Of a stretch of 64,000 nucleotides of DNA, positions 6,396-53,581 are shown piece after piece; the stretch's first letter is position 1, and each line of letters starts with the position of its first letter. The stretch is taken from assembly GCF_011764445.1 (NCBI RefSeq), contig NZ_BLPG01000001.1:1302001-1366000 (forward strand), in the 5' to 3' direction. A program made the translations under genes and the position numbers. This DNA is from Phytohabitans rumicis. Lineage in GTDB: Bacteria > Actinomycetota > Actinomycetes > Mycobacteriales > Micromonosporaceae. Below the pieces are notes generated by a model, which did not search any database, was not told the DNA's origin, and saw only the letters and a program-made list of their open reading frames with translations.

Positions 6396-6894
6396 GACGA
6401 CGAGAGTCACATACACGGCGGTGCTGCCAGTAAGCGAGCGGACGGTGGACTTCCTGGCCGGTCTGCTGGCCGCCGAACGCGCCCGGCGCGGTACCCGCGC
6501 CGGCACCCGCGCGCTGTCCTGCCGCGACCAGGCAGTACTGGCCCTTCGATGGCTCCTGGACGGCACCCGGATGCGCCAACTGGCCCGCGACAACAAGATC
6601 GGCAAGTCCACCGGCTATGACTACCTACACGAGGGCATTGACGTGCTCGCCGCCCAGGCCCCTAGCCTGCACGGGGCGCTGCTAGCGGCCAAGGCCGCCG
6701 GCTACAGCCACGTGAACATCGACGGGATGCTGGTCGAGACCGACCGGTCCCGCACCCCCGGGCCCACTCCCGCCGTTGACCTTTGGTGGTCGGGCAAGCA
6801 CGATAACCACGGCGGCAATGTGCAGGTGATCTGGACCTCCCCGGTACGTCCCGGCCGCGAGCATGACACCAGCCGGGTTCGGCGGTGTACGTAG
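6349..6894 (+). pseudogene. IS5-like (DDE_Tnp_4 type) transposase, truncated
   Basis: The N-terminal half of an actinobacterial IS transposase is readable: a helix-turn-helix segment (LSCRDQAVLALRWLLDG, then MRQLARDNKIGKSTGYDYLHEG) and the first catalytic region HVNIDGMLVETDR, with D as the first acidic residue. The hallmark LWWSGKHDNHGGNVQVI follows but runs straight into WTSPVRPGREHDT, so about eight residues normally lying between them (memory of family members) are missing. The frame ends at 6894 without the remaining acidic residues. It is an inactive remnant that abuts a regulator fragment on the other strand. Confidence 0.75.
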
Positions 6895-7080
6895 TGATCC
6901 GCAGGCCGTCCGCGCTGAGGTCGAGCGCCTCGAACGTGAGGCTGAGTCCGCCCACGACCGGATGGTGAAAGCGCTTGACCCCGGGTCCGGTGAAACCACT
7001 CGGCGAAGGCCGCATCGAGGTTGTGGAACGGCTCGCCCTCGGTGGCCTGGGTGTACCAGGTGAAGTCCCAGAGCATGTTG
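6868..7080 (-). pseudogene. C-terminal remnant of an MmyB-like XRE regulator
   Basis: Minus-strand pieces GVKRFHHPVVGGLSLTFEALDL and RITTYTAEPG match the end of MmyB-type transcription factors; compare HHPTVGDLHLTYEAMEL and LITYTAEPG in the intact regulator at 44822-45709. The upstream half is in another frame and no helix-turn-helix is present. The transposase remnant may have disrupted it. Bases 7081-7417, up to the esterase start, contain no further gene that I can support. Confidence 0.5.
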
Positions 7081-42447: not shown

Positions 42448-43335
42448 TCAGGCTTCGGGGATCGGCCGGCCGAAGGTCTCGAGCGTGATGTCGGCGGGCT
42501 CCGGGCCGCCGCGTCGACCGGTATCCAGTCCGTCGATCGCGGCGAGCTGCTCGCTGGTGAGCTCGAAGTCGAACACGTCGAGGTTCTCCGCGATGCGCTC
42601 CGGGCGCGTCGATTTCGGGATCGCCGAGCGGCCCTGTTGCAGGTGCCAGCGCAGCATTACCTGCGCGGGGGTCTTGGCGTGCGCCTTGGCGATCTCGCCG
42701 ATCACCGGGTCCTGCAGGGTGCTGCCGTGGCTGCCGTCGCGGTAGAAGGTGATGCCGCCGATGGGTGACCACGCCTGGGTGAGAATGCCGTGCTCGGCGC
42801 CGAATGCCTGTACCTCGCGCTGGGCGAAGTAGGGGTGCACCTCGATCTGGTTCACCGCGGGCACGACCGTCGCCTTGTCGAGCAGGGCGGTGAGGTGGTC
42901 GATCATGAAGTTGCTGACCCCGATGGCGCGGACCTTGCCGTCGGTCAACAGCGTCTCCAGGGCGCGGTAGGCCTCCAGGGTTTTGCCGAACTCAGACGGC
43001 AGAGCCTGGTGCAGGATGAGCAGGTCGATCTGGTCGACGCCGAGCTTGCGGACGCTCTTGTCGAAGCCGTGCAGAGTCTGCTCGTAGCCGTAGTCGCTAA
43101 TCCAGATCTTGGTTTCCAGGAAGACGTCGGCACGGTCGACGCCCGACTTGGCCACGGCCTCGCCGACCTGCCGTTCGTTGCCGTAGGCGGCCGCGGTGTC
43201 GATGTGCCGGTAGCCGGCCGCGAGGGCGGCCTCGGCGGCGGAGCGGGTCTCGTCCGGCGGGGTCTGGAAGACACCGAACCCGAGGGTGGGCATTTCGACG
43301 CCGTTGTTCAACGTCAGGTGTGTGGTGGTGGGCAT
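42448..43335 (-). CDS. Aldo/keto reductase (2,5-diketo-D-gluconate reductase-like)
   Basis: Protein of 295 residues. The catalytic tetrad is visible: D in RHIDTAAAYGNE, Y in the same motif, K in ETKIW and H in LLILHQA. Substrate loops and the NADP motif IPKSTRPERI are normal. It reduces aldehydes or ketones with NADPH. It follows the DUF2255 gene on the same strand, and a copy of the 34-bp element lies upstream of that gene. Confidence 0.92.
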   Translation of the reverse strand: MPTTTHLTLNNGVEMPTLGFGVFQTPPDETRSAAEAALAAGYRHIDTAAAYGNERQVGEAVAKSGVDRADVFLETKIWISDYGYEQTLHGFDKSVRKLGVDQIDLLILHQALPSEFGKTLEAYRALETLLTDGKVRAIGVSNFMIDHLTALLDKATVVPAVNQIEVHPYFAQREVQAFGAEHGILTQAWSPIGGITFYRDGSHGSTLQDPVIGEIAKAHAKTPAQVMLRWHLQQGRSAIPKSTRPERIAENLDVFDFELTSEQLAAIDGLDTGRRGGPEPADITLETFGRPIPEA

Positions 43336-43349
43336 GGCGGCGTTTCCTC

Positions 43350-43771
43350 TCAGTTTCGGGGCAGCAGGCGGATGGTGACCGTGCTGGCCTTCTCCCCACC
43401 ACGGAGCCCACGATGGTGGGCCCGTACCGGTCGTACTTGGCGTGGTAGGCAGCGTCGATGTCGGCGTGGACGTCCGGGGCGGCCTCGGAGAAGATCACGT
43501 CGCGCTCCAGGCCGCCGGCCCGGATGCGGCCCGCGCCGCTGCGCCGTGCGTGGACGAACCAGGGATTGGCAGGGCCGCGGGCCGAGCGGACGTAGAGCTC
43601 GTCGCCGGCGCGCACGACCCACATCGTCACGTAGGGGCGCAGCGTGCCGTGTTCTCGCAGCGACGCGAGTTCCAGCTCCTCCGCGCGACCGATCTGCATC
43701 AGCTCGCCGCTCGTCCAGGACGTCGTCGTCGATTCGTGTGCCACAGCGTCTCCCTCTTCGCTTTCCGCCAT
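43350..43771 (-). pseudogene. DUF2255 family protein, apparent frameshift at its end
   Basis: About 140 residues. Typical text: [70 protein letters not shown]. The last 15 residues (GEKASTVTIRLLPRN) are in another frame; one extra base in a GGGG run near 43395 joins them. DUF2255 proteins are small, often next to reductases; function is not established. Leads an operon with the aldo/keto reductase, 71 bp after the 34-bp element. Confidence 0.75.
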
Positions 43772-43842
43772 GCCCCCGATCGAGCCCGATCATGTCCGCG
43801 GCGGCCGGCCCACACCAGCAAAACATCGCTGTCCCGATTTCA

Positions 43843-43876
43843 GAGAGTTTCTGTTGAAAGGGGTAACAGCAGGACC
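43843..43876 (-). promoter_or_regulatory. 34-bp control element, copy before the DUF2255/AKR operon
   Basis: On the minus strand it reads GGTCCTG ... TACCC ... CAACAGAAACTCTC. It matches the copy at 45746 at 24 of 34 positions. It ends 71 bp before the DUF2255 start. Confidence 0.6.
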
Positions 43877-43922
43877 CCCTCGCCGCAACAACACGGTGCT
43901 GCACCCGCTGCCTCCTCACGGC

Positions 43923-44633
43923 TCAGCGGGCGAGCAGCCCGATCCGGCGCAGCCACGCCTCGACGGTCGGCTGGGCGTCGGCGACCTCCTCGCCGCGCAC
44001 GGCGAGACCCTCCCCGAGCGTCGCGCCAGAACATGACGCGGCATAGTCACGCTCGGTGGTTCCCAGACCGCTCATCGCGTACGTGGTGAGCGGGTGGACC
44101 GTCTTGCCCGCGAAGTCCAAGCCCTCGACGAACGTAGTCATGATCATGGGTGCTCGGACGTTCCAGATCGGGCTGCCCAGCACCACCGTGTCGTAGCGTT
44201 CGACCGATGTCAGCGGGTTCGTGATGGCCGGCCGGGCGTTCGCTTCCTGCTCGCGCACATTGCGCTCGACCGTCGGGTCGTAGTCGTCCGGGTACGGGTC
44301 GGCGGCCTCGATGCGGTGCACGTCGCAGCCGATGAGCCGGCTAATCATTCCCGCTACCACCTCGGTGTTACCGACGCTTAGTCGCTTGCGACCTCCGTTG
44401 AAGTAGTTCTCCCCGGCACGGGAGAAGTAGGCCAGCAGCACGGTGCCTCCCGCGGAGGAAGAGGGAACCGGGGCGGTGCGGGACTCGCTGTCAGCCGGCG
44501 GCGAAGCCGTAGGGGAAACCGCCGGGGAATCGGTGCAGGCGCCCAGTACTGTGCCCGCCGCCGTCCCGGCGGCACCGAGCAGCGCGCTGCGCAGGAACGC
44601 GCGGCGCGGATGGTGCTTGCTCATCACATCCAT
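43923..44633 (-). CDS. Exported flavodoxin-like lipoprotein
   Basis: Protein of 236 residues; GGAG lies five bases before ATG 44633. The N-terminus KHHPRRAFLRSALLG with VLGAC is a twin-arginine signal ending in a lipobox, so the protein is folded, exported and lipid-anchored. A Ser/Pro/Thr linker leads to a flavodoxin fold (VLLAYFSRAGENYF, VVLGSPIWNVRAPM, TTYAMSGLG), which would bind FMN. Flavodoxins outside the membrane are unusual electron carriers; a quinone- or disulfide-reducing role is possible. Confidence 0.82.
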   Translation of the reverse strand: MDVMSKHHPRRAFLRSALLGAAGTAAGTVLGACTDSPAVSPTASPPADSESRTAPVPSSSAGGTVLLAYFSRAGENYFNGGRKRLSVGNTEVVAGMISRLIGCDVHRIEAADPYPDDYDPTVERNVREQEANARPAITNPLTSVERYDTVVLGSPIWNVRAPMIMTTFVEGLDFAGKTVHPLTTYAMSGLGTTERDYAASCSGATLGEGLAVRGEEVADAQPTVEAWLRRIGLLAR

Positions 44634-44821
44634 CAGTTCTCCAGATCTGCCGTCACCTGCACATGCGCGACGCATCGTCAAGGTCACGCGGGTTTGTCCC
44701 GCGTCGGTAACCAGCCGATGAGCAGACGCAGCCGGGTCAGCGGGGCGACGTTTCCACGCCCGTCCGGGCGAGAATCGGAGCCGGCAGCTGCATTGGTCTC
44801 TCCCGTGTTTGCGATGCGTTG

Positions 44822-45709
44822 CTATGCCTGGTCGGCGCTCTCGGTCGCCTGGGCCTGGTCGAGGGTTGCCGCCCAGCTCGCGAGGAGGTTCAGCGCATCC
44901 TGGGATGGGGAGCCCGGTTCGGCGGTGTATGTGATGAGCGTCAACCCTGGGTCGGCGGTCAGTTCCATGGCCTCGTAGGTCAGGTGCAGGTCGCCGACCG
45001 TCGGGTGGTGGAGGTGTTTGAGGCCGGTGCGGTGGTGGCGCACGTTGTGCGCCGCCCACAGCTGCCGGAAGGTGTCACTGCGGGTGGACAGCTCGCCGAT
45101 GAGGTCGGACAACGCGCGGTCGTACGGGTGCTGCCCGGCTTCGGAACGCAGTGCCGCGACCGTATCGTGCGCCAGACGTTCCCAGTCGAGGTAGAACTCG
45201 GCCGAATCCGGGTGCAGAAACAGGAACCGGGCCGGGTTGGCCGGTCGGACCGGGTCGGCGAATATCGGCGCGAACAGCGCCGCGGCGAGCCGGTTGGTGG
45301 CCAGGATGTCCAGGCGCCCGTTGCGCACGTACGCCGGTGCGCCGGTCATCGCGTCCAGGATGCGTTGGACGCTAGGACGCACCTGCCGCTGCTTGGTCGG
45401 CCGGCGCCGTGTCCGTGCGGTGCTGGTGTTCGCCGCGTGGACCAGGTCGAACAGGTGCGTGCGTTCGGCCTCGTCAAGACGCAGCGCGCGGGCCAGTGCC
45501 TCAAGCACGCTGTCGGACACGCCGCGGACGTTGCCGCGCTCCAGCCGGGTGTAGTAGTCGACGCTGACCCCGGCCAGCATGGCGACCTCCTCCCGGCGCA
45601 GCCCGGCCACCCGCCGGTTGCCGCCGTAGACGGGCAGCCCCACCTGGTCCGGAGTGATCTTGGCCCGGCGGGAAGTCAGGAAGTCACGGATCTCGTCGCG
45701 GGTGTCCAC
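44822..45709 (-). CDS. MmyB-like XRE-family transcriptional regulator (copy 1)
   Basis: Protein of 295 residues from GTG 45709. The N-terminal XRE helix-turn-helix (about 30-85) has GLRREEVAMLAGVSVDYYTRLERG. The C-terminal MmyB-type ligand domain includes ILATNRLAAALFAP, YDRALSDLIGELSTRSDTFRQLWAAHNV and HHPTVGDLHLTYEAMEL. Such regulators sit beside oxidoreductases or efflux genes and usually repress them. It is about half identical in visible motifs to the second copy at 51294. A copy of the 34-bp element lies 37 bp upstream. Confidence 0.9.
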   Translation of the reverse strand: MDTRDEIRDFLTSRRAKITPDQVGLPVYGGNRRVAGLRREEVAMLAGVSVDYYTRLERGNVRGVSDSVLEALARALRLDEAERTHLFDLVHAANTSTARTRRRPTKQRQVRPSVQRILDAMTGAPAYVRNGRLDILATNRLAAALFAPIFADPVRPANPARFLFLHPDSAEFYLDWERLAHDTVAALRSEAGQHPYDRALSDLIGELSTRSDTFRQLWAAHNVRHHRTGLKHLHHPTVGDLHLTYEAMELTADPGLTLITYTAEPGSPSQDALNLLASWAATLDQAQATESADQA

Positions 45710-45745
45710 GGTTTCGACGGTAGGGGCGCGCAACCGCCGGTGGGA

Positions 45746-45779
45746 GGTCCTGTCAGTACCCGGAACACCAGAAACTCCC
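45746..45779 (+). promoter_or_regulatory. 34-bp control element between the regulator and antiporter genes
   Basis: GGTCCTGTCAGTACC ... CCAGAAACTCCC. CTGTCAG is a near palindrome. It is placed between the divergent regulator and antiporter genes. Confidence 0.6.
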
Positions 45780-45900
45780 TCGCGGGTTCCGGGATGGGGT
45801 CTCATAGGTAGCCACCCGCATGTGGACACCCACACTGGTCGGTATGGTCGATTTGCCAGAAATAACAGTGAAAGCATCGCTTTGAGTAGAGAGGTGAAGG

Positions 45901-47486
45901 TTGCTCGGTCTCGAGCTCGTCGTGGTCCTCGGTGTGACCATGCTGCTGAGCCACCTCGTGGCACGCCGCCTGCGGATCGCCCCACCGGTGGTGCTGCTGG
46001 TGTGCGGCGTGCTGCTGGGCTTCGCGCCAGCGCTGCGCGGCGTACACCTGCCGCCGGAGGCGATGCTGCTGCTGTTCCTACCAGCGCTGCTGTACTGGGA
46101 GAGCCTAACCACGTCGCTGCGAGAGATCCGCAGCTACCTGCGTGGCATCGTGCTGATGAGCACGGTGCTGGTGATCGCGACGGCCGCGGCGGTGGCGGTC
46201 GTGGCGCACGCGCTGGGACTGCCCTGGGGACCGGCGTGGGTGCTCGGTGCCGCCGTAGCACCGACCGACGCGACCGCCGTAGGGGTGCTCGCCCGGGCAC
46301 TGCCGCGCCGCACCGTCACCCTGCTGCGCGCCGAGAGCCTGGTCAACGACGGCACCGCCCTGGTCATCTACGGCCTGGCGGTCGGCGTCACGATCGGCGA
46401 AGAACGATTCAGCGTGCCGCACGTCTCCTGGCTGTTCCTGCTCTCATACGGCGGCGGCGTGGCAACCGGGCTGGCAACCGCCTGGGCGGAGTGTGGGCAC
46501 GCCGCCGGGTCGACGACCCGCTACTGGGCAACCTGGTGAGCCTCGTGACCCCGTTCACCGCTTTCCTGCTGGCCGAGGTGGTCCACGCCTCGGGCGTCCT
46601 CGCGGTGGTGGTGTGCGGGCTGATGATCAGCCAAGCCGTGCCGCGCGTGGTGCGGGCCGACACCCGCCAGTACGGTCAGGCGTTCTGGTCGCTGTCCACC
46701 TTCGTGCTCAACGGCGCGCTGTTCGTCCTGGTGGGGTTGGAGGCGCAGGCAGCGGTCCGCGGCCTGAGCGCCGCCGACCTCACCCGTGGCCTGGCCGGGG
46801 TGGGTGTCGCCTCGGCGGTCGTGATCGGTGTGCGCTTCGCGTTCGTATTCACCGCGCCGTACCTGATCCGGCTACTGGACCGGCGACCCCAGCAACGCCT
46901 CCTGCGGACAGGTGCCCGGACCCGGGTGGTCAGCGCCGTGGCCGGCTTCCGCGGTGCGGTGTCACTGGCCGCGGCGCTCGCGGTGCCGCTGGCGCTCGAC
47001 TCGGGTGAGCCGTTCCCAGGCCGCGACATGATCATCTTCGTGACCTGCGGGGTCATCGCGGTGACCCTGGTGGGGCAGGGACTACTGCTACCGGTCATGG
47101 TCCGCTGGGCCCGGCTGCCCCACGACACGGCGGTTGAGCAGGAGCGCCACCTCGCCGAGTGTCTCGCCACGGAGGAGGCGCTGGCCGCGATACCGCGGCT
47201 CGCCGCCGAACACGGCGCCGAGCCGCAGGTGGTCGACCGGCTGTACCGGGAGTACGAGGAACATCTGCGGGTCCTGCGCGCCAACGATGCCGGCATCGAC
47301 GACGAGCCGGTCCTGCGGCACGAACAGCAATACGCCGCGCTGCGCCTGGCCGTGCTGGCTCACAAACGAACCACCGTAGTCCGGCTGCGCGACGAGCGCC
47401 GCATCGACGACACCGTGCTGCGCCAGGTACAGAACCAACTGGACCACGAAGAGGTCCGCCTGTCCCGACGCGAGGTGATCGACTAA
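45901..47486 (+). pseudogene. CPA1-type Na+/H+ antiporter, apparent frameshift
   Basis: About 528 residues after repair, starting at TTG behind GAGAGGTGAAGG. Roughly twelve membrane segments; antiporter core motifs GAAVAPTDATAV and LRAESLVNDGTALV, then GFRGAVSLAAALAVPL, and a hydrophilic C-terminal tail (about 420-528). The frame slips near 46487: LATAWA continues as VWARRRVDDPLLGNLVSL when one G is added to a GGG run. It exchanges Na+ or K+ for protons. It is divergent from the first MmyB-like regulator. Confidence 0.8.
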
Positions 47487-47521
47487 CCCTATCGGCGCGG
47501 GCCAACCCAGGGCAGGTAACG

Positions 47522-47555
47522 GGTTCTGCCAGTACCTGGAACGACAGGATCTCCC
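47522..47555 (+). promoter_or_regulatory. 34-bp control element upstream of the MFS gene
   Basis: GGTTCTGCCAGTACC ... GACAGGATCTCCC. Nearly identical to the copy at 49204. It lies 161 bp before the chosen MFS start. Confidence 0.6.
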
Positions 47556-47716
47556 GCACCGACGCCCGCTCGACTTCTGCGCCGGCGACGATGACCCGCG
47601 CCGTAATCCCGCGACCGGACAACCGGTGTGCCCCGACCAAAGCCGACGAGTAAGCAGACCGTAACGACGCTATGACAAGGGTTCCGTCCGTAACGCTTCC
47701 GAAGAAGGGATCCCCG

Positions 47717-49192
47717 GTGCCTGGTCGCGACGATCATCCCGTTGGTGTCCGCTCGCATCCGACGGCTGTTCTGGCGATCATCTTGGTCAGCTACCTGATG
47801 ATCGTCTTGGACATCTCAGTGGTGATCACGGCGCTGCCGCGGATCCGCGAAGACCTCGGCTTCTCCACCGCCGGCCTGTCCTGGGTGCAGAGCGCCTACA
47901 CGCTCGTGTTCGGTGGTCTGCTGCTGCTCGGCGCCCGCGCCGGCGACATCATCGGCAGGCGCCGCGTGTTCATCCTCGGTCTGGTGCTGTTCACCCTCGC
48001 CTCGCTCGTGGTCGGCGCCGCGCCGTCGGCGGTATGGCTGCTCGCCGGCCGCGTGCTGCAAGGGGTCGGCGCGGCAGCACTGGCGCCGTCGACGCTGGCC
48101 CTGTTGACCGCGAGCTTCCCGGACGGCCCCGAGCGCACCCGTGCGGTGGCTGCCTACGGCGCCGTCGCCGGCGTCGGAGCCAGCGTCGGCCTCGTACTCG
48201 GCGGCGTCCTGACCGGCTTCCTGTCCTGGCGGTACGGGTTCTTCATCAACCTACCCATCGGCGCCGCCATGCTGGTCGCCGCCCGACGCTACCTGACCGA
48301 GACCGAACACAACCCGGGCCGCTTGGACGTCTTCGGCGCCCTGACCTCCACGCTGGGCATGACCGCGCTGGTGTACGGCTTCGTCCGCTCCGCCGAGGCC
48401 GGCTGGAGCGACGGCCTAACCGTCGCGGCGGTCATCTCCGGCGCGGTATTGGCCGTGGTGTTCGTCCTTAACGAGTGGCGGGCCCGGCAGCCGATCATGC
48501 CGCTGCGGCTGTTCGCCAGCAGGGAACGCTCCGGCGCCTACCTTGCACGGCTGCTGTTCCTCGGCGCGATGGTCGGCTACTTCTTCTTCACCACGCAGTT
48601 CCTCCAACAGGTCCTCGGCTACACCCCGCTCCAGGCGGGACTCGCGTTCCTACCCATGACACTGGTCAACTTCGTGGTAGCGCTCGCCGTGCCCCGCCTG
48701 ACCCGGCGGTTCGGCAACACCACGCTCCTCGCGGCCGGCATCGCCGTCACCGTGCTCGGGATGGCGTGGCTCAGCCGCCTCGACGCCGGCAGCCCGTACC
48801 TGACCGCGGTCGCGCTACCCATGGTGCTCATCGGCGTCGGGCAGGGCATGGCGTTCGGGCCGCTGACCGCCGCCGGCATCGCCGGCGTCGCCCCGAACGA
48901 CGCCGGTGCCGCCTCCGGGCTGGTCAACGTCGCGCACCAGCTCGGCGGCTCGCTCGGCCTCGGCATCCTGGTCGCGGTCGCGTCCACCGCCGGCACCGAC
49001 CCGGGCGGCGCCGACGCCACCCTCGCCCGGCACGTCGCCACCGCGCTCACCGTAGGCAGCGTCCTACTCGCGCTGGCGCTGGCAGCCGTACTCACACTGA
49101 TCGCCCGCCGGACACCTGCCCTTGAGCCGTCGCTGCCCCAGCAGCCGCAGCTGACACTCACGACCGCATCCACTCCCGACGCACAAACATGA
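47717..49192 (+). CDS. MFS drug-efflux permease, 14-helix DHA2 (EmrB/QacA) type
   Basis: Protein of about 491 residues with fourteen hydrophobic segments. Signature phrases are LDISVVITALPRI (motif D1), GARAGDIIGRRRVF (motif A) and GRVLQGVGAAALAPSTLAL (motif B), then GPVAGVGASVGLVLGG-like motif C text. It pumps hydrophobic drugs out in exchange for protons. GTG 47717 is chosen for its spacing from AAGGG; ATG 47672 is the longer alternative. A 34-bp element upstream suggests drug-responsive control by the MmyB-like regulators. Confidence 0.88.
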   Translation: MPGRDDHPVGVRSHPTAVLAIILVSYLMIVLDISVVITALPRIREDLGFSTAGLSWVQSAYTLVFGGLLLLGARAGDIIGRRRVFILGLVLFTLASLVVGAAPSAVWLLAGRVLQGVGAAALAPSTLALLTASFPDGPERTRAVAAYGAVAGVGASVGLVLGGVLTGFLSWRYGFFINLPIGAAMLVAARRYLTETEHNPGRLDVFGALTSTLGMTALVYGFVRSAEAGWSDGLTVAAVISGAVLAVVFVLNEWRARQPIMPLRLFASRERSGAYLARLLFLGAMVGYFFFTTQFLQQVLGYTPLQAGLAFLPMTLVNFVVALAVPRLTRRFGNTTLLAAGIAVTVLGMAWLSRLDAGSPYLTAVALPMVLIGVGQGMAFGPLTAAGIAGVAPNDAGAASGLVNVAHQLGGSLGLGILVAVASTAGTDPGGADATLARHVATALTVGSVLLALALAAVLTLIARRTPALEPSLPQQPQLTLTTASTPDAQT

Positions 49193-49203
49193 CCGGTGTG
49201 AGA

Positions 49204-49237
49204 GGTACTGCCAGTACCTGGAACAGCAGGATCTCCC
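49204..49237 (+). promoter_or_regulatory. 34-bp control element before the DUF2255 remnant and alcohol dehydrogenase
   Basis: GGTACTGCCAGTACC contains the perfect palindrome GTACTG-C-CAGTAC; GCAGGATCTCCC closes the element. It ends 72 bp before the DUF2255 remnant, the same spacing as at 43843. Confidence 0.65.
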
Positions 49238-49309
49238 ACGCCAGTCCTGTTGCGTGTTGCATGGGTGTCGGAGGGATTTTCGGTCCGCGCATGAGGAAGG
49301 AGGCGTCCG

Positions 49310-49555
49310 ATGAGTACCTGGACAGCTCGCCTCCCGACGAGACGATGGCAGTCTGCGCCGCCCGGTGACCATGTGGGTGGTACGCGCCGGCGACGAACTG
49401 TACGTGCGTCCATGTACGGCCGCGCCGGCGTCTGGTTCCGCGGCACGCAAACCCGCCACGAGGGCCACATCCGAGCCGGCGGCGTCGACAAGGACGTCGA
49501 CTTCGTCGTCAACCCCGACTCCCGCGCCGCAACGATCAAACTCGTACCCCGCTGA
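49310..49555 (+). pseudogene. Decayed second DUF2255 gene
   Basis: Pieces of the family remain: MSTWT at the start, [14 protein letters not shown] in one frame, then [25 protein letters not shown] and a C-terminal [10 protein letters not shown] in another. The segment between is deleted and the middle is shifted. Compare the better-preserved copy at 43350-43771. Its upstream element is intact, so the promoter may now serve the alcohol dehydrogenase 17 bp downstream. Confidence 0.7.
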
Positions 49556-49572
49556 CTCTCGCAAAGGAAAAC

Positions 49573-50616
49573 ATGTTCACCGTCAACGCCTTCGCCGCCA
49601 CCTCGGCGAGCGAGCCGCTGCACCCAATCACCATCGAACGGCGTGACGTAGGCCCGCACGACGTGCTCATCGAGATCAAGTTCTGTGGCATCTGCCACTC
49701 CGACATCCACACCGCCGGCGACGAATGGGGCATGACGACGTATCCCGTCGTCCCGGGTCACGAGATCGTCGGGATCGTCACCTCAATTGGTTCCGAGGTC
49801 ACCAAGCACTCCGTCGGCGATCAGGTCGGGGTGGGCTGCATGGTCGACTCCTGCGGCGATTGCGTCAACTGTCGCAAGGGTGAGGAGCAGTTCTGCCTGA
49901 ACGGCAGCACCCTCACCTTCGGCTCGATCGACAATGACGGCCTCCCCACGCAGGGCGGCTACTCCACCCACATCGTGGTCACCGAGGACTTCGTTCTCAA
50001 GATCCCCGACGGTCTCGCGCTCGACGCCGCCGCCCCGCTGCTGTGCGCCGGCATCACCACATACTCGCCACTGCGCCGCTGGGGTGCCAGGCCCGGCACG
50101 AAGGTCGCGGTCATCGGCCTCGGCGGGCTCGGGCACCTGGCCGTCAAGTTCGCCCGCGCGATGGGTGCCGAGGTAACCGTGCTGTCGCAGTCGCTCAAGA
50201 AGCAAGACGACGGCCTGCGGCTGGGAGCCCATCACTACCACGCCACCAGTGACCCGCAAACGTTCGAGGAACTCGCCGGCACCTTCGACCTGATCGTGAA
50301 CACGGTCAGCGCGAAGGTTGACCTGGACGCGTACCTGGGCCTACTGGCCCTGGACGGCGCCCTGGTCAACGTCGGCGCCCCCGCCGAGCCGCTGTCGCTG
50401 AACGTGTTCTCCCTGATCATGGTCCGCCGCTCCTATGCCGGTTCGCTGATCGGCGGCATCCGCGAGACCCAGGAAATGCTCGACTTCTGCGCCGAACACG
50501 GCATCAGTGCCGACATCGAAGCCATCCCTGCCGAAAAGATCAACGAGGCGTACGAACGGGTGCTGGCCTCCGACGTGCGGTACCGGTTCGTCATCGACAC
50601 CACGACGCTGAACTGA
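49573..50616 (+). CDS. Zinc-dependent NAD(P) alcohol dehydrogenase (YahK/CAD-like)
   Basis: Protein of 347 residues. Catalytic zinc ligands are CGICHSD and GHEIVG. The structural zinc site is the Cys cluster [15 protein letters not shown]. Cofactor motif [17 protein letters not shown] follows. It matches the cinnamyl-alcohol-dehydrogenase-like group that reduces aldehydes with NADPH. Part of the redox cluster under the 34-bp element and closed by a perfect 15-bp hairpin. Confidence 0.93.
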
Positions 50617-50637
50617 CGCACGCTCACCATCTCCGGG

Positions 50638-50671
50638 CGAGCCGGGGGCGCGTTGCCGCGCCCCCGGCTCG
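50638..50671 (+). terminator. Perfect 15-bp GC-rich hairpin after the alcohol dehydrogenase
   Basis: CGAGCCGGGGGCGCG and CGCGCCCCCGGCTCG pair fully around TTGC, 21 bp past the stop codon. Confidence 0.75.
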
Positions 50672-50765
50672 CATGCGCGCACCCGGGATGAAGAGGTTGA
50701 CGAGAAGTCCTATCCACGCGAAGCGACCCACAGGTCCACCCGCAGTAGGAGCCACTGCTGTGAGA

Positions 50766-50799
50766 GGTACTGACAGGAACCCCAACGACATCAGAAGGT
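50766..50799 (+). promoter_or_regulatory. Decayed half of the 34-bp element
   Basis: GGTACTGACAG matches the first block (with the GTACTG arm intact), but the second block CTCCC is lost. It lies at the end of the SnoaL-like gene rather than before a gene; probably a remnant. Confidence 0.35.
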
Positions 50800-51168
50800 C
50801 GTCGCGACCGTTTGTAACGCGATCCACTCGCCGGTACGACGCTCGTAGGTGGTGGTCAGCTGCAAGTTCCAGGTGGCGCGGCTGCCCCAGATGGTGGCGT
50901 CGACGACATTCCTGCCGACCACGACGGCTGTCTCGTCGGTGACCTCGACTGAGGTGCTCCGTTCCCGCCACGAGTGGTACCGCATCTCGCCCGAGTCGAT
51001 CTGCTGCAACCATTCCGTCTTCGACTGCTGGTATCCGGTCAGATGGGTGAGCGTGTAACCGCCATCCAGCAGGTCGTCGAGCAGATCGGTGTCTCGCTCG
51101 AGCATGCCGCGGTACATTGCGCGGTGCGCCTCGACGAGCGGGGCATTGGCGTCGCTGCTAGGGCTCAT
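50791..51168 (-). CDS. SnoaL/DUF4440-like NTF2-fold protein
   Basis: Protein of 125 residues. The fold signature is readable: AHRAMYRGMLERDTDLLDDLLDGGYTLTH at the start, WLQQIDSGEMRYHSW and the beta strands VVVGRNVVDATIWG and WNLQLTTTYERR. NTF2-fold proteins of this type are small enzymes or binding proteins; the role here is unknown. It lies downstream of the second MmyB-like regulator on the same strand. Confidence 0.85.
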   Translation of the reverse strand: MSPSSDANAPLVEAHRAMYRGMLERDTDLLDDLLDGGYTLTHLTGYQQSKTEWLQQIDSGEMRYHSWRERSTSVEVTDETAVVVGRNVVDATIWGSRATWNLQLTTTYERRTGEWIALQTVATTF

Positions 51169-51293
51169 ATCGACTCCTACTATCGCGCATCCCTGCGGTG
51201 CCGACCGCCGTCAGCTTCGGGGCAGACCTTTCGGGCAACGGGTGATGGCGGGCACCTCGGGTGGGCGTGTGCCGGAGCGGGATGTGCTGAAGA

Positions 51294-52157
51294 TCAGGGC
51301 GAGACGTGTTGTGCCTCGGTGGCGGCCCAGCTCGCGAGCAGGTCGAGCGCTTGCTGGGAGGGTGAGCCGGGTTCGGCGGTGAAGATCAGCAGGGCCAGTC
51401 CTGGGTCGGACGGCAGTTCGAGGGCTTCGTAGGCCAGGTCCAGATCGCCGGCGATCGGGTGGTGCAGGCGTTTGATGCCGGTGCGGTGCAGGCGGACGTC
51501 GTGGGTGGCCCAGCGGGTGCGGAACTCCTCGCTGCGGGTGGCCAGCTCGCCGATCAGGTCGCTGAGCGCCTTGTCGTACGGGTTGTTGCCGGCCGCCGTG
51601 CGCAAAGCGGCCACGGTGTCGCGACCGGTGGCGTCCCAGTCGCGGTAGTAGTCCGCGGCCCGTGGGTCGAGGAACCGGAACCGGGCGTGGTTCGCCGGAC
51701 CGACGGGGCTGTCGAACAGCGGCGAGTTCAGTGCCCGGCCGAGGCGGTTGGTCGCGACGATGTCGCAGTGGCCGTTACTCAACCAGGCGGGGCAGAGCTG
51801 ACTGTCGAGGATCTGCTGGACGACGGGGCGTATCCGCTGGGCGGCCGGCTTGCGGCGCACAGTGGTGCTGGAGTTGGTGGCTGCCCGGGCCAGGTCGAAC
51901 AGGTGCGCCCGTTCGGCCTCGTCGAGCTGCAGGGCGCGGGCGAGCGCGTCGAGCACGCTGTCGGAGGCGCCGCGGATGTTGCCGCGCTCCAGCTGGGTGT
52001 AGTACTCGACCGAGACTCCCGCGAGCTGGGCGACCTCGCCTCGGCGAAGCCCGGAGACCCGGCGGGTGCCGCCGTGTGCGGCAAGGCCCGCCTGCTCAGG
52101 GGTGACCTTGCCACGGCGGGTGACCAGGAAGTCTCGTACCTCGCTGCGGTTGTCCAT
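51294..52157 (-). CDS. MmyB-like XRE-family transcriptional regulator (copy 2)
   Basis: Protein of 287 residues. XRE helix-turn-helix at about 30-75 (GLRRGEVAQLAGVSVEYYTQLERG), then the MmyB ligand domain (CDIVATNRLGRALNSP, KALSDLIGELATRSEEFRTRWATHDVR, RLHHPIAGDLDLAYEALEL, LLIFTAEPGS). Very similar in layout to copy 1 at 44822, so the cluster may have grown by duplication. A copy of the 34-bp element lies 32 bp upstream, consistent with self-control. Confidence 0.92.
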   Translation of the reverse strand: MDNRSEVRDFLVTRRGKVTPEQAGLAAHGGTRRVSGLRRGEVAQLAGVSVEYYTQLERGNIRGASDSVLDALARALQLDEAERAHLFDLARAATNSSTTVRRKPAAQRIRPVVQQILDSQLCPAWLSNGHCDIVATNRLGRALNSPLFDSPVGPANHARFRFLDPRAADYYRDWDATGRDTVAALRTAAGNNPYDKALSDLIGELATRSEEFRTRWATHDVRLHRTGIKRLHHPIAGDLDLAYEALELPSDPGLALLIFTAEPGSPSQQALDLLASWAATEAQHVSP

Positions 52158-52188
52158 GTCTCCACGCTACGAGCCCGGCCTCGCCGCA

Positions 52189-52222
52189 GGGAGACGCTCT
52201 CAGCACCCCTCACGGCAGTATC
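52189..52222 (-). promoter_or_regulatory. 34-bp control element before MmyB-like copy 2
   Basis: On the minus strand TACTGCC and TCTCCC are present with exactly the 26-bp start-to-start spacing seen in the other copies; the middle differs. Confidence 0.5.
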
Positions 52223-52315
52223 CCCTCGGAGTGGTGCTGGCATCTTCCTGAGTGCTCGGCAGGTGCATGTATCAGGTCGAAGATCGCCAAGCGGATTCCG
52301 CCCCGACGTGTGGGG

Positions 52316-52349
52316 GTTACTGTCGGCACCCCTTTCAGCAGAGTCTCCC
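52316..52349 (+). promoter_or_regulatory. 34-bp control element before the exported aldo/keto reductase
   Basis: GTTACTGTCGGCACC ... CAGCAGAGTCTCCC matches the copy at 49204 at 23 of 34 positions, and both carry GTTGCATGGG 18 bp further on. It ends 68 bp before the start codon. Confidence 0.6.
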
Positions 52350-52417
52350 TGTTCGTCGGTATCGCGGGTTGCATGGGCCGCAAGTCATGTCCTGTCGCGA
52401 CAACGAGAAGGTGCTCA

Positions 52418-53581
52418 ATGTCAGACAACAACAGCCGACGCCGGTTCCTGCTGGGTGCGGCCGGCGTCGCGGCAGCTCCCGCGGTGGCCGGCCTGGTCGG
52501 TCCAGCGACGGCCGCGCAGGCGTCCAGCCGTCCCGCCGGCAATGGTGCCCCGGCGACAACAGCCACCACACTGACCAGCCGCCGCCGGCTGGGCCGGCTC
52601 AAGGTCTCCAGCATCGGGTTGGGCTGCCAGACCATGACCGGCCGTCTGTACGGCCCGGTCAGCAGCCGCGCGGACATGGTCAAAATCATCCGCACCGCGG
52701 TCGACCAAGGCGTCACCCTGTTCGACACCGCCGAGGCATACGGGCCGTTCGAGTCCGAACGCATCGTCGGCGAGGCCCTGCGGCGGGTGCGGGACAAGGT
52801 GGTGATCGCGTCGAAGTTCGGCTGGAACATCGACCCGGACACCGGGCAGCAGCTTCCGGGCCTCAACAGCCAACCCGCGCACATCAAGCGAGCCGTCGAC
52901 GGCATGCTCCAGCGCCTGCGCACCGACCACATCGACCTGCTCTACCAGCACCGGGTCGACCCGCAGGTGCCGATCGAGTACGTGGCCGACGCGATCAAGG
53001 ACCTGATCAGGGCCGGCAAGGTGCGGCACTGGGGGCTGTCCGAGCCAGGCCCGCAGACGGTACGCCGCGCGCACGCGGTGCAACCGCTGGCGGCGATCCA
53101 GAACGAGTACAACCTGCTGTGGCGCGGCCCCGAGCAGCAGATCCTGCCGCTGTGCGAAGAGTTGGGAATCGGGTTCGTGTGCTGGGCGCCGCTGGCATAC
53201 GGGTTCACCACTGGCACCATCAACCCCTACACACGCTTCGCCGAGGGTGACTTCCGGGCGTGGGTGCCGCGGCACGCGCCGGAGAACATGACCGCGAACA
53301 TGGCGGTCGTGCAGTTGCTGTCCGACTGGGCCGTGCGCAAGGGAGCGACGCCGGGGCAGTTGTCGCTGGCGTGGTTGCAGGCGCAGAAGCCGTGGATTGT
53401 GCCCATCCCGAGCGCCACCCGCACCTCGCACCTGCTGGAGAACATCGGCACCGAGGAGTTCGCCTTCACCCCGGCCGAGTTGCGCGAGTTCACCACCGCG
53501 CTGAACGCGATCCCGATCCGCGGCGAGCGGCTGCCCGCGCCGGTGCTCGCCCTCTCGGGCGTCGAAGCGCCTCTGCCCTGA
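52418..53581 (+). CDS. Tat-exported aldo/keto reductase
   Basis: Protein of 387 residues. The N-terminus MSDNNSRRRFLLGAAGVAA is a twin-arginine signal, cleaved near ATAAQA. The reductase barrel follows: catalytic D and Y in TLFDTAEAYGPF, K in VIASKFGWN and H in DLLYQHRVD. The C-terminal NADP motif is IPSATRTSHL. Export of an NADPH-dependent enzyme in folded form implies that cofactor is bound inside the cell first. It is the last gene of the redox cluster, under the 34-bp element. Confidence 0.88.
   Translation: MSDNNSRRRFLLGAAGVAAAPAVAGLVGPATAAQASSRPAGNGAPATTATTLTSRRRLGRLKVSSIGLGCQTMTGRLYGPVSSRADMVKIIRTAVDQGVTLFDTAEAYGPFESERIVGEALRRVRDKVVIASKFGWNIDPDTGQQLPGLNSQPAHIKRAVDGMLQRLRTDHIDLLYQHRVDPQVPIEYVADAIKDLIRAGKVRHWGLSEPGPQTVRRAHAVQPLAAIQNEYNLLWRGPEQQILPLCEELGIGFVCWAPLAYGFTTGTINPYTRFAEGDFRAWVPRHAPENMTANMAVVQLLSDWAVRKGATPGQLSLAWLQAQKPWIVPIPSATRTSHLLENIGTEEFAFTPAELREFTTALNAIPIRGERLPAPVLALSGVEAPLP

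Follow-up and report, generated by a model that had tools for sequence, protein, structure and literature searches.

The 64,000-nucleotide stretch of Phytohabitans rumicis DNA analysed here (the window) spans positions 1302001-1366000 of a contig within a 10.7 Mb genome. Two MmyB-like regulators, both encoded on the minus strand, are set among genes for aldo/keto reductases (AKR), a DUF2255 protein, a flavodoxin, a Na+/H+ antiporter, a major facilitator superfamily (MFS) transporter, a zinc alcohol dehydrogenase (Zn-ADH) and a DUF4440 protein, and a composite DNA element recurs between these genes (Table 1). This element, made up of a 15-bp palindrome (P1, GGTnCTGnCAGTACC), an arm (CAG-N3-CTCCC) and a -10-like box (GTTnnnTGG at +45), looks like a real and widely conserved switch; the element, its geometry, its regulon and the link between P1 and the regulator were all obtained computationally.

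Both regulators belong to the MmyB/MltR family, combining an N-terminal XRE helix-turn-helix (HTH) with an MLTR ligand-binding domain (PF17765), and regulator 2 shares 65% identity with regulator 1 across residues 1-286. A profile of 28 homologues matches the solved MltR structure 3pxp (E 1.9e-10); single-sequence phmmer gave no match to 3pxp at 0.001.

Table 1. Genes and element copies discussed in the text (window coordinates; R1 and matrix scores as explained below)
Feature	Position	Strand	Support	P1	Arm	-10-like box
MmyB-like (MLTR_LBD) XRE regulator 1	44822..45709	-	PF17765 E 6.6e-62, HTH_31 4.4e-11
MmyB-like (MLTR_LBD) XRE regulator 2	51294..52157	-	PF17765 E 1.4e-54, HTH_31 1.5e-10
Element between regulator 1 and antiporter	45739..45800	+	R1 44.9 bits, E 6.3e-13	45746-45760 (centre 45753)	CTCCC 45775-45779	no good target box
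Predicted regulator 1 promoter: CTCCCA 45741-45746, N18, TACCGT 45717-45722, start codon right after	45717..45746	-	conserved geometry
Target-side element preceding MFS gene 47672	47521..47569	+	R1 35.8 bits, E 4.4e-10	47522-47536	CTCCC 47551-47555	poor
Best target-side element, before broken DUF2255 gene and Zn-ADH gene	49198..49266	+	R1 49.6 bits, E 2.2e-14	49204-49218	CTCCC 49233-49237	TTGCAT 49257-49262
Full P1 and arm, between convergent genes	50723..50783	-	R1 28.7 bits, E 7.4e-08	50766-50780	CTCCT 50747-50751	none
Target-side element before DUF2255 gene	43826..43879	-	R1 28.1 bits, E 1.1e-07	43862-43876	CTCTC 43843-43847
Degenerate own element of regulator 2	52193..52226	+	matrix 19.9, eighth-highest in window	52193-52207 (centre 52200)
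Target-side element before AKR gene 52418-53581	52310..52377	+	R1 38.7 bits, E 5.4e-11	52316-52330	CTCCC 52345-52349	TTGCAT 52369-52374
Aldo/keto reductase	42448..43335	-	PF00248 E 2e-52
DUF2255 protein	43350..43771	-	PF10012 E 6.7e-35
MFS transporter	47672..49192	+	PF07690 E 2.7e-54
Zinc alcohol dehydrogenase	49573..50616	+	PF08240 E 6.7e-28
Aldo/keto reductase, weak twin-arginine (TAT) signal match	52418..53581	+	PF00248 E 2.6e-63 (scanned from 52310)

Copies were scored with a position matrix resting on 124 sequences, one of them the window's own regulator 2 site, and with a profile, R1, made from 67 of 84 armed elements, none of which comes from the window or from a third locus of the same genome. 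The six best matrix scores in the window range from 50.2 to 33.8, and the maxima in five letter-shuffled windows from 0.8 to 9.3. An earlier inspection of the letters (the original prediction) had listed six copies and a half copy. Elements are present at or near all six positions, but they are not of equal standing, with five scoring strongly by R1; the copy at 52193 has no R1 match on the plus strand. The supposed half copy at 50766 is in fact a full P1 with an arm, on the minus strand, with no -10 box and no recognisable target.

Other details of the prediction had to be amended. The predicted constant spacing of 26 bp, from the T of TnCTGnC to the C of CTCCC, measures 27 bp, and the true element is longer than the 34 bp assigned to it, with a left GGGAG conserved too. 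The shared blocks TnCTGnC and CTCCC/CTCTC recur with deviations: 52189 has CTC for CTG and TCCCC one base early, 43843 has CTGCT and CTCTC, and in the latter copy TTTGCTGG lies 1 bp farther out than usual. The distances of 68-72 bp from block to gene, given for three genes, agree with the measured 71, 72 and 68. Likewise, GTTGCATGGG is found 18 bp past the two copies said to share it, but it is not special to them, being the general target box GTTnnnTGG.

Conservation and geometry of the element

Homologues of regulator 1 were gathered by a scan of named genomes (38 loci), two whole-genome searches and further fetched stretches; at E<=1e-60 they occur in 139 of 200 genomes of the family and 24 of 296 of the phylum, the own genome included. 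N-terminal matching gave 187 places, 178 of them with distinct upstream DNA, and dropping the own-genome loci L001-L008 left 171 upstream regions, one of which is that of the window's regulator 2. An iteratively trained motif scored above 10 bits in 124 of these 171 upstream regions of Actinomycetota regulator homologues, and in 101 of the 124 a distance of 45-47 nt separates its centre from the start codon of the regulator. When each region was letter-shuffled five times, none of the 855 shuffles exceeded 10 bits (maximum 7.2).

With x=0 placed at the middle of CTGnCAG, P1 spans x=-7 to 7, while CAG and CTCCC of the arm occupy positions 16-18 and 22-26, respectively; at least four of the five CTCCC letters are present in 84 of the 124 elements, three in 23, and two or fewer in 17. 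Anchoring on the P1 core alone, which 126 of 170 upstream regions passed, recovered exact CTCCC at +22 in 50 of the 126 regions (mean at other offsets, 0.20) and exact GTTnnnTGG at +45 in 39 (mean 0.03). On the regulator side, CTCCC begins at x=-7 in 61 of the 126 and TA[GC]N[GC]T at x=-31 in 88. The arrangement CTCCCW-N18-TASCGT, located on the opposite side of P1 from the arm, looks like the regulator's own promoter, and 18 bp separate the hexamers in both the regulator and the target promoter. If each -10 box is assumed to occupy -12 to -7, the position of P1 would be -43 relative to the regulator start site predicted in this way and -58 relative to that of the target. In the stretch x=-31 to -46 upstream of regulator 1 homologues, about 10 nt separate the end of the conserved TASCGT box from the start codon of the regulator, whose mRNA therefore probably has no leader or a very short one.

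The target -10 letters TT at 46-47 and T at 51 go with the arm, occurring in 62 of 83 elements that have one and in 2 of 17 that lack it (p=1.8e-6); where the arm is weak, the count is 9 of 23. A divergent gene accompanies 79 of 83 elements with an arm versus 13 of 17 without (p=0.027), a weak test, with open reading frame calls loose in GC-rich DNA; the comparison by -10 box is the better one. Most target-only copies keep P1, the arm and the -10 box and have lost the regulator's -10. At one locus (L254; G028:C34 near 96738-96846), divergent Zn-ADH and MFS targets share a single P1, which has an arm and a -10 box on either side, and 36 positions of the 53-bp stretch are self-complementary; at another, in Kocuria (L306), the two modules apparently stand in tandem, as judged by eye. 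Given this modularity, the arm is read as a part of the target promoter and P1 as the anchor. A -35 of the extracytoplasmic function (ECF) type, GGAAC, was considered inside the window copies and rejected, its letters not being conserved elsewhere.

Among homologues on 11 plasmid records, that of Kocuria alone scores above 10 (25.9). In Streptomyces longwoodensis, a site cut by the stretch end can be seen by eye about 165 nt upstream, where the matrix gives -7.3, and matrix scores are at most 7.1 in Streptomyces SYP-A7193, Frondihabitans, Mycolicibacterium, Curtobacterium, Rahnella, Priestia, Sphingobium, Azospirillum and Pantoea. The S. longwoodensis plasmid (NZ_CP109035.1, L307) carries ADH, AKR and MFS genes divergent from the regulator and an AKR gene downstream, a set resembling that of the window, and a nearby tyrosine recombinase gene provides a hint of mobility. 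Upstream of the MLTR homologues of Priestia, Sphingobium, Azospirillum and Pantoea (L312, L313, L314, L316), another common box, roughly TATACnnnGATAA, was recognized by eye, followed by an ACTTT stretch in the three Gram-negatives (Sphingobium, Azospirillum and Pantoea); short-chain dehydrogenase/reductase (SDR) genes are divergent, with fabF in Priestia. This box is perhaps a distant version of TACCnGGATnA...ACTCCC. The upstream regions of two other MLTR paralogues (L203, L204) have CCTGGTACTGCCnGACnCAGGAA in common, which could be a different operator belonging to another subfamily.

Correspondence of P1 with the regulator and genome-wide sites

P1 is two-fold symmetric, and one of its half-site position pairs covaries. 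Positions -7/+7 are G/C in 95 of 124 elements (class A) and T/A in 22 (class B), with 7 in neither class; they are complementary in 117 of 124, compared with 66% expected, and their mutual information (MI) is 0.58, compared with a shuffle maximum of 0.083. Among the 81 regulators with enough gene sequence for a class comparison (59 of the 95 in class A and all 22 in class B), residue 54 shows the strongest correspondence of the positions compared, being T, V or I in 59/59 of class A and A or S in 21/22 of class B. Residue 51 is E in 22/22 of class B versus 12/59 of class A, and residue 55 is R in 57/59 of class A versus 5/22 of class B. All three residues are placed in what we take to be the second, DNA-reading helix of the HTH. 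This pattern of covariation suggests that P1 is probably read by the neighbouring regulator.

Scanning the own genome with R1 returned 51 matches at E<=10. Seven of these have E<=1.8e-5, the next (0.04) is the reverse face of the 49198 palindrome, and the others run from 0.06 upward. Six of the seven strong matches fall inside the window; the remaining one lies ahead of an SDR gene that diverges from the gene of a third regulator. An MLTR gene lies within 1.5 kb of five of the seven and within 3 kb of the other two (window coordinates). Of the 44 weaker matches, 22 were examined as loci outside the region, and none of these 22 has an MLTR gene within 1.5 kb. With stricter filters, R1 gave 33 matches in 20 of 60 other genomes of the family and 9 matches in 5 of 79 other genomes of the phylum. 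The original prediction had regarded the copies as the control element of a regulon with MmyB-like regulators and had proposed a scan of related genomes for matches near MmyB-like genes. Both the seven own-genome matches, found with a profile built from other genomes, and the 42 matches in the 139 other genomes, mostly beside MmyB-like regulators and before oxidoreductases, support that interpretation.

Together with the seventh own-genome match, the 42 sites comprise 16 training places and 27 outside training, several of the latter belonging to the larger set of 124. For 13 of the 27, an MLTR gene starts no more than 250 bp away, and for six others one is found within 2.5 kb; among the 13, two regulators are just 37-39% identical, and one match is a second one in a training locus. 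The next gene was taken as the longest open frame and re-picked by third-position GC at 11 sites. It encodes an oxidoreductase at 21 of the 27 sites (AKR, Zn-ADH, SDR and one flavin mononucleotide (FMN) reductase), a raw count with no matched control, and otherwise an MFS transporter (two), a cyclophilin-like protein (two), an endonuclease/phosphatase-family protein (one) or a protein of no known family (one). Zn-ADH, SDR and AKR genes adjoin many regulator homologues but not all, and the window has Zn-ADH and AKR.

As for the window's other genes, the AKR gene at 42448 and the DUF2255 gene next to it perhaps form one unit, and neither the antiporter gene of the predicted target list nor the DUF4440 gene is supported as a target. 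Directly after the best element lies a broken second DUF2255 gene (49310-49567), whose frame from 49310 is interrupted by a stop and of which a 47-residue open piece (49412-49552) corresponds to DUF2255 positions 42-78. The Na+/H+ exchanger (45901-47486) occupies two frames that overlap near 46491-46539, with each half separately matching PF00999, which could reflect either decay or an assembly error. An MLTR_LBD fragment (6872-6988, 28.7 bits) occurs without a full gene and without an element alongside among the best matrix scores. A further element considered at 6420 was rejected, as it falls outside the 14 best matrix scores.

Proposed mechanism and rival explanations

With a probability of about 0.6, the copies are a composite operator-promoter of an MmyB-like (MltR-type) XRE subfamily, of activator type and with LysR-like two-site control. 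A regulator dimer would read P1, as the covariation suggests, centred 58 bp upstream of the target start, while the arm would take the -35 position and GTTnnnTGG would act as the -10 box. Relative to the CTCCCW-N18-TASCGT promoter of the regulator, the same P1 would take position -43; with one P1 serving both promoters, the regulator would control itself and its targets from a single anchor. Activation would depend on a ligand, whereby a carbonyl-type or amphipathic compound on the PAS-like domain may enable the dimer on P1 to recruit polymerase, perhaps while also touching the arm. Most predicted targets are enzymes of the AKR, Zn-ADH and SDR families, with MFS pumps and small accessory proteins in addition, and their putative role is the detoxification of reactive aldehydes, ketones or quinones. 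Considering that this target set resembles the YqhC-yqhD-dkgA aldehyde response, reactive carbonyls may serve as a first guess for the signal. The start sites, activation, ligand and substrate of the regulon are inferred.

Several observations weigh against this composite operator-promoter. In 47 of the 171 upstream regions, no element exceeds 10 bits, and an MLTR gene is absent from the 4 kb around 8 of the 27 non-training sites, although for one of these the contig ends nearby; the eight precede AKR (three), Zn-ADH (two), SDR (one) and MFS (one) genes and one gene of no known family. In the window, the antiporter and MFS copies are without a good -10 box and the 50723 copy is without a target. 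Among 14 mirrored P1 pairs, -7/+7 alone covaries as complements, several pairs being nearly invariant, and the MI of -10/+10 exceeds shuffles, yet this pair is not complementary. Residues 44, 40 and 7, outside the second HTH helix, also follow the operator class, and on a quick tree built without columns 48-58 the class needs four changes, only one of them forced by starred branches; shared ancestry thus explains part of the helix link. Arm position +22 shows no correspondence with P1 class, and the idea that the arm binds another dimer with the specificity of the first was rejected on this ground.

The same element and regulator could instead work by repression, with a dimer on P1 (and the arm) covering the -35 regions until a ligand releases it. 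P1 lies next to or partly over the -35 of the regulator (x=-7 to -12), and the parts covered of two sources are in keeping with repression: the XRE regulator MsrR of Corynebacterium glutamicum is a repressor both of its own gene and of an MFS gene that diverges from it (PMC7532634), and autoregulation is frequent among XRE regulators (PMC12565409). Activation is nevertheless preferred, because the CTCCC -35 is far from the consensus TTGACA, because the parts of the element keep a rigid spacing and because PMC3406030, in the parts covered, presents MmyB as an activator. Moreover, in elements with an arm P1 mostly keeps one fixed distance from the -10 (62/83), a phase that repressor sites do not need, and the target-side P1, at -58, is located outside the core promoter. 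Repression is accordingly considered rather unlikely, though well worth keeping in view.

The original prediction had itself offered an unusual promoter as an alternative. The arm and the GTTnnnTGG box indeed behave as promoter parts, but P1 behaves as the regulator's site. A stronger form of this idea, in which the element is mainly the promoter of an alternative sigma factor with a CTCCC -35 and MLTR genes merely belong to its regulon, would account for CTCCCW-N18 preceding both -10 boxes and for an arm that does not follow regulator class. It is hard to reconcile with -10 boxes that differ (TASCGT versus GTTnnnT), with P1 halves that covary with each other and with the regulator, and with sites that accompany MLTR genes (the company of sigma genes was not searched), and is regarded as improbable. 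A dispersed repeat or chance similarity without function might be suspected from copies clustered in 8.5 kb of one genome, yet the same geometry recurs in other Actinomycetota families and classes, at a fixed distance from regulator starts and with compensatory changes. Chance repetition was rejected on the shuffled upstream regions, the shuffled-window maxima and the P1-anchored offsets, and has a negligible probability.

Relation to known systems

LysR-type two-site control involves a recognition site, an activation site and a divergent autoregulated gene. The arrangement proposed here is similar in having a palindromic anchor near -60 of the target, a second element at -35 and an anchor that overlaps the regulator's promoter; it differs in its XRE DNA-binding domain and in that the arm as a regulator-bound site is putative. 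No LysR HTH with substrate domain was found in the window regulators, which have XRE-type HTH and MLTR domains only. In phage lambda, CI, an XRE-fold dimer, binds near -42 of its own promoter PRM, much as P1 would place an XRE dimer close to this position; to our knowledge, CI has neither a small-molecule domain nor an arm of such a kind. The AraC-type YqhC of Escherichia coli represents a different phylum and regulator type from the XRE proteins here, and the likeness concerns the targets. As in the window, its gene is located beside reductase targets, and YqhC is described, in the parts of PMC8262776 covered, as activating an aldehyde reductase and a methylglyoxal reductase.

MsrR resembles the present regulators in its XRE domain, its position near an MFS gene and its autoregulation (proposed here for the latter), and is described, in the covered parts of PMC7532634, as an autoregulated thiol-based sensor with an oxidative-stress link. 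By contrast, regulator 1 has no cysteine, which excludes thiol-type redox sensing for it; regulator 2 has two, for which thiol sensing is not excluded and a redox role is only putative.

The closest precedent is MmyB itself. In the parts of PMC3406030 covered, the MmyB/MltR family (PF17765) is characterized by an XRE domain and a PAS-like ligand domain, with the regulator gene divergent from or beside a dehydrogenase gene and with pseudo-palindromic sites suggested. This domain layout and neighbourhood are common to the regulators studied here and are therefore known already. For the dehydrogenase-linked group, the same parts offer neither an operator sequence nor a fixed composite promoter, nor any covariation with a helix, and the MmyB 'B-boxes' of the methylenomycin cluster are known here by mention alone (PMC3406030). 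No operator of this form for the dehydrogenase-linked subfamily was found in the covered parts of the literature on MmyB-like regulators, including PMC7532634, PMC10717218 and PMC12565409. The last of these clustered 5622 XRE motifs; none of five site fragments is present in its main text, the supplements being outside the comparison, where the motif may be present unlabelled. Within the literature searched, novelty appears to lie in the operator-promoter and its geometry, and in the candidate residue for specificity.

A broader proposal can be put forward only tentatively. The element may represent an old composite-promoter class, extending from Actinomycetia to Acidimicrobiia, in which an XRE dimer rather than a LysR protein runs LysR-like two-site control, with P1 at -43 of a near-leaderless autoregulated promoter and at -58 of the target, a special CTCCC -35 in each promoter that regulator and sigma factor use together, and modules on either or both sides of P1, as at L254; its regulon might then correspond, in actinobacteria, to the aldehyde response of YqhC. 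Actinomycetes have many MmyB-like regulators, whose ligand, mode of action and targets become directly testable once a site is defined, a residue is proposed for specificity and a regulon is predicted. Genes regulated in trans may also be readable from genomes, as AKR, Zn-ADH, SDR or MFS genes follow seven of the eight sites that have no regulator close by.

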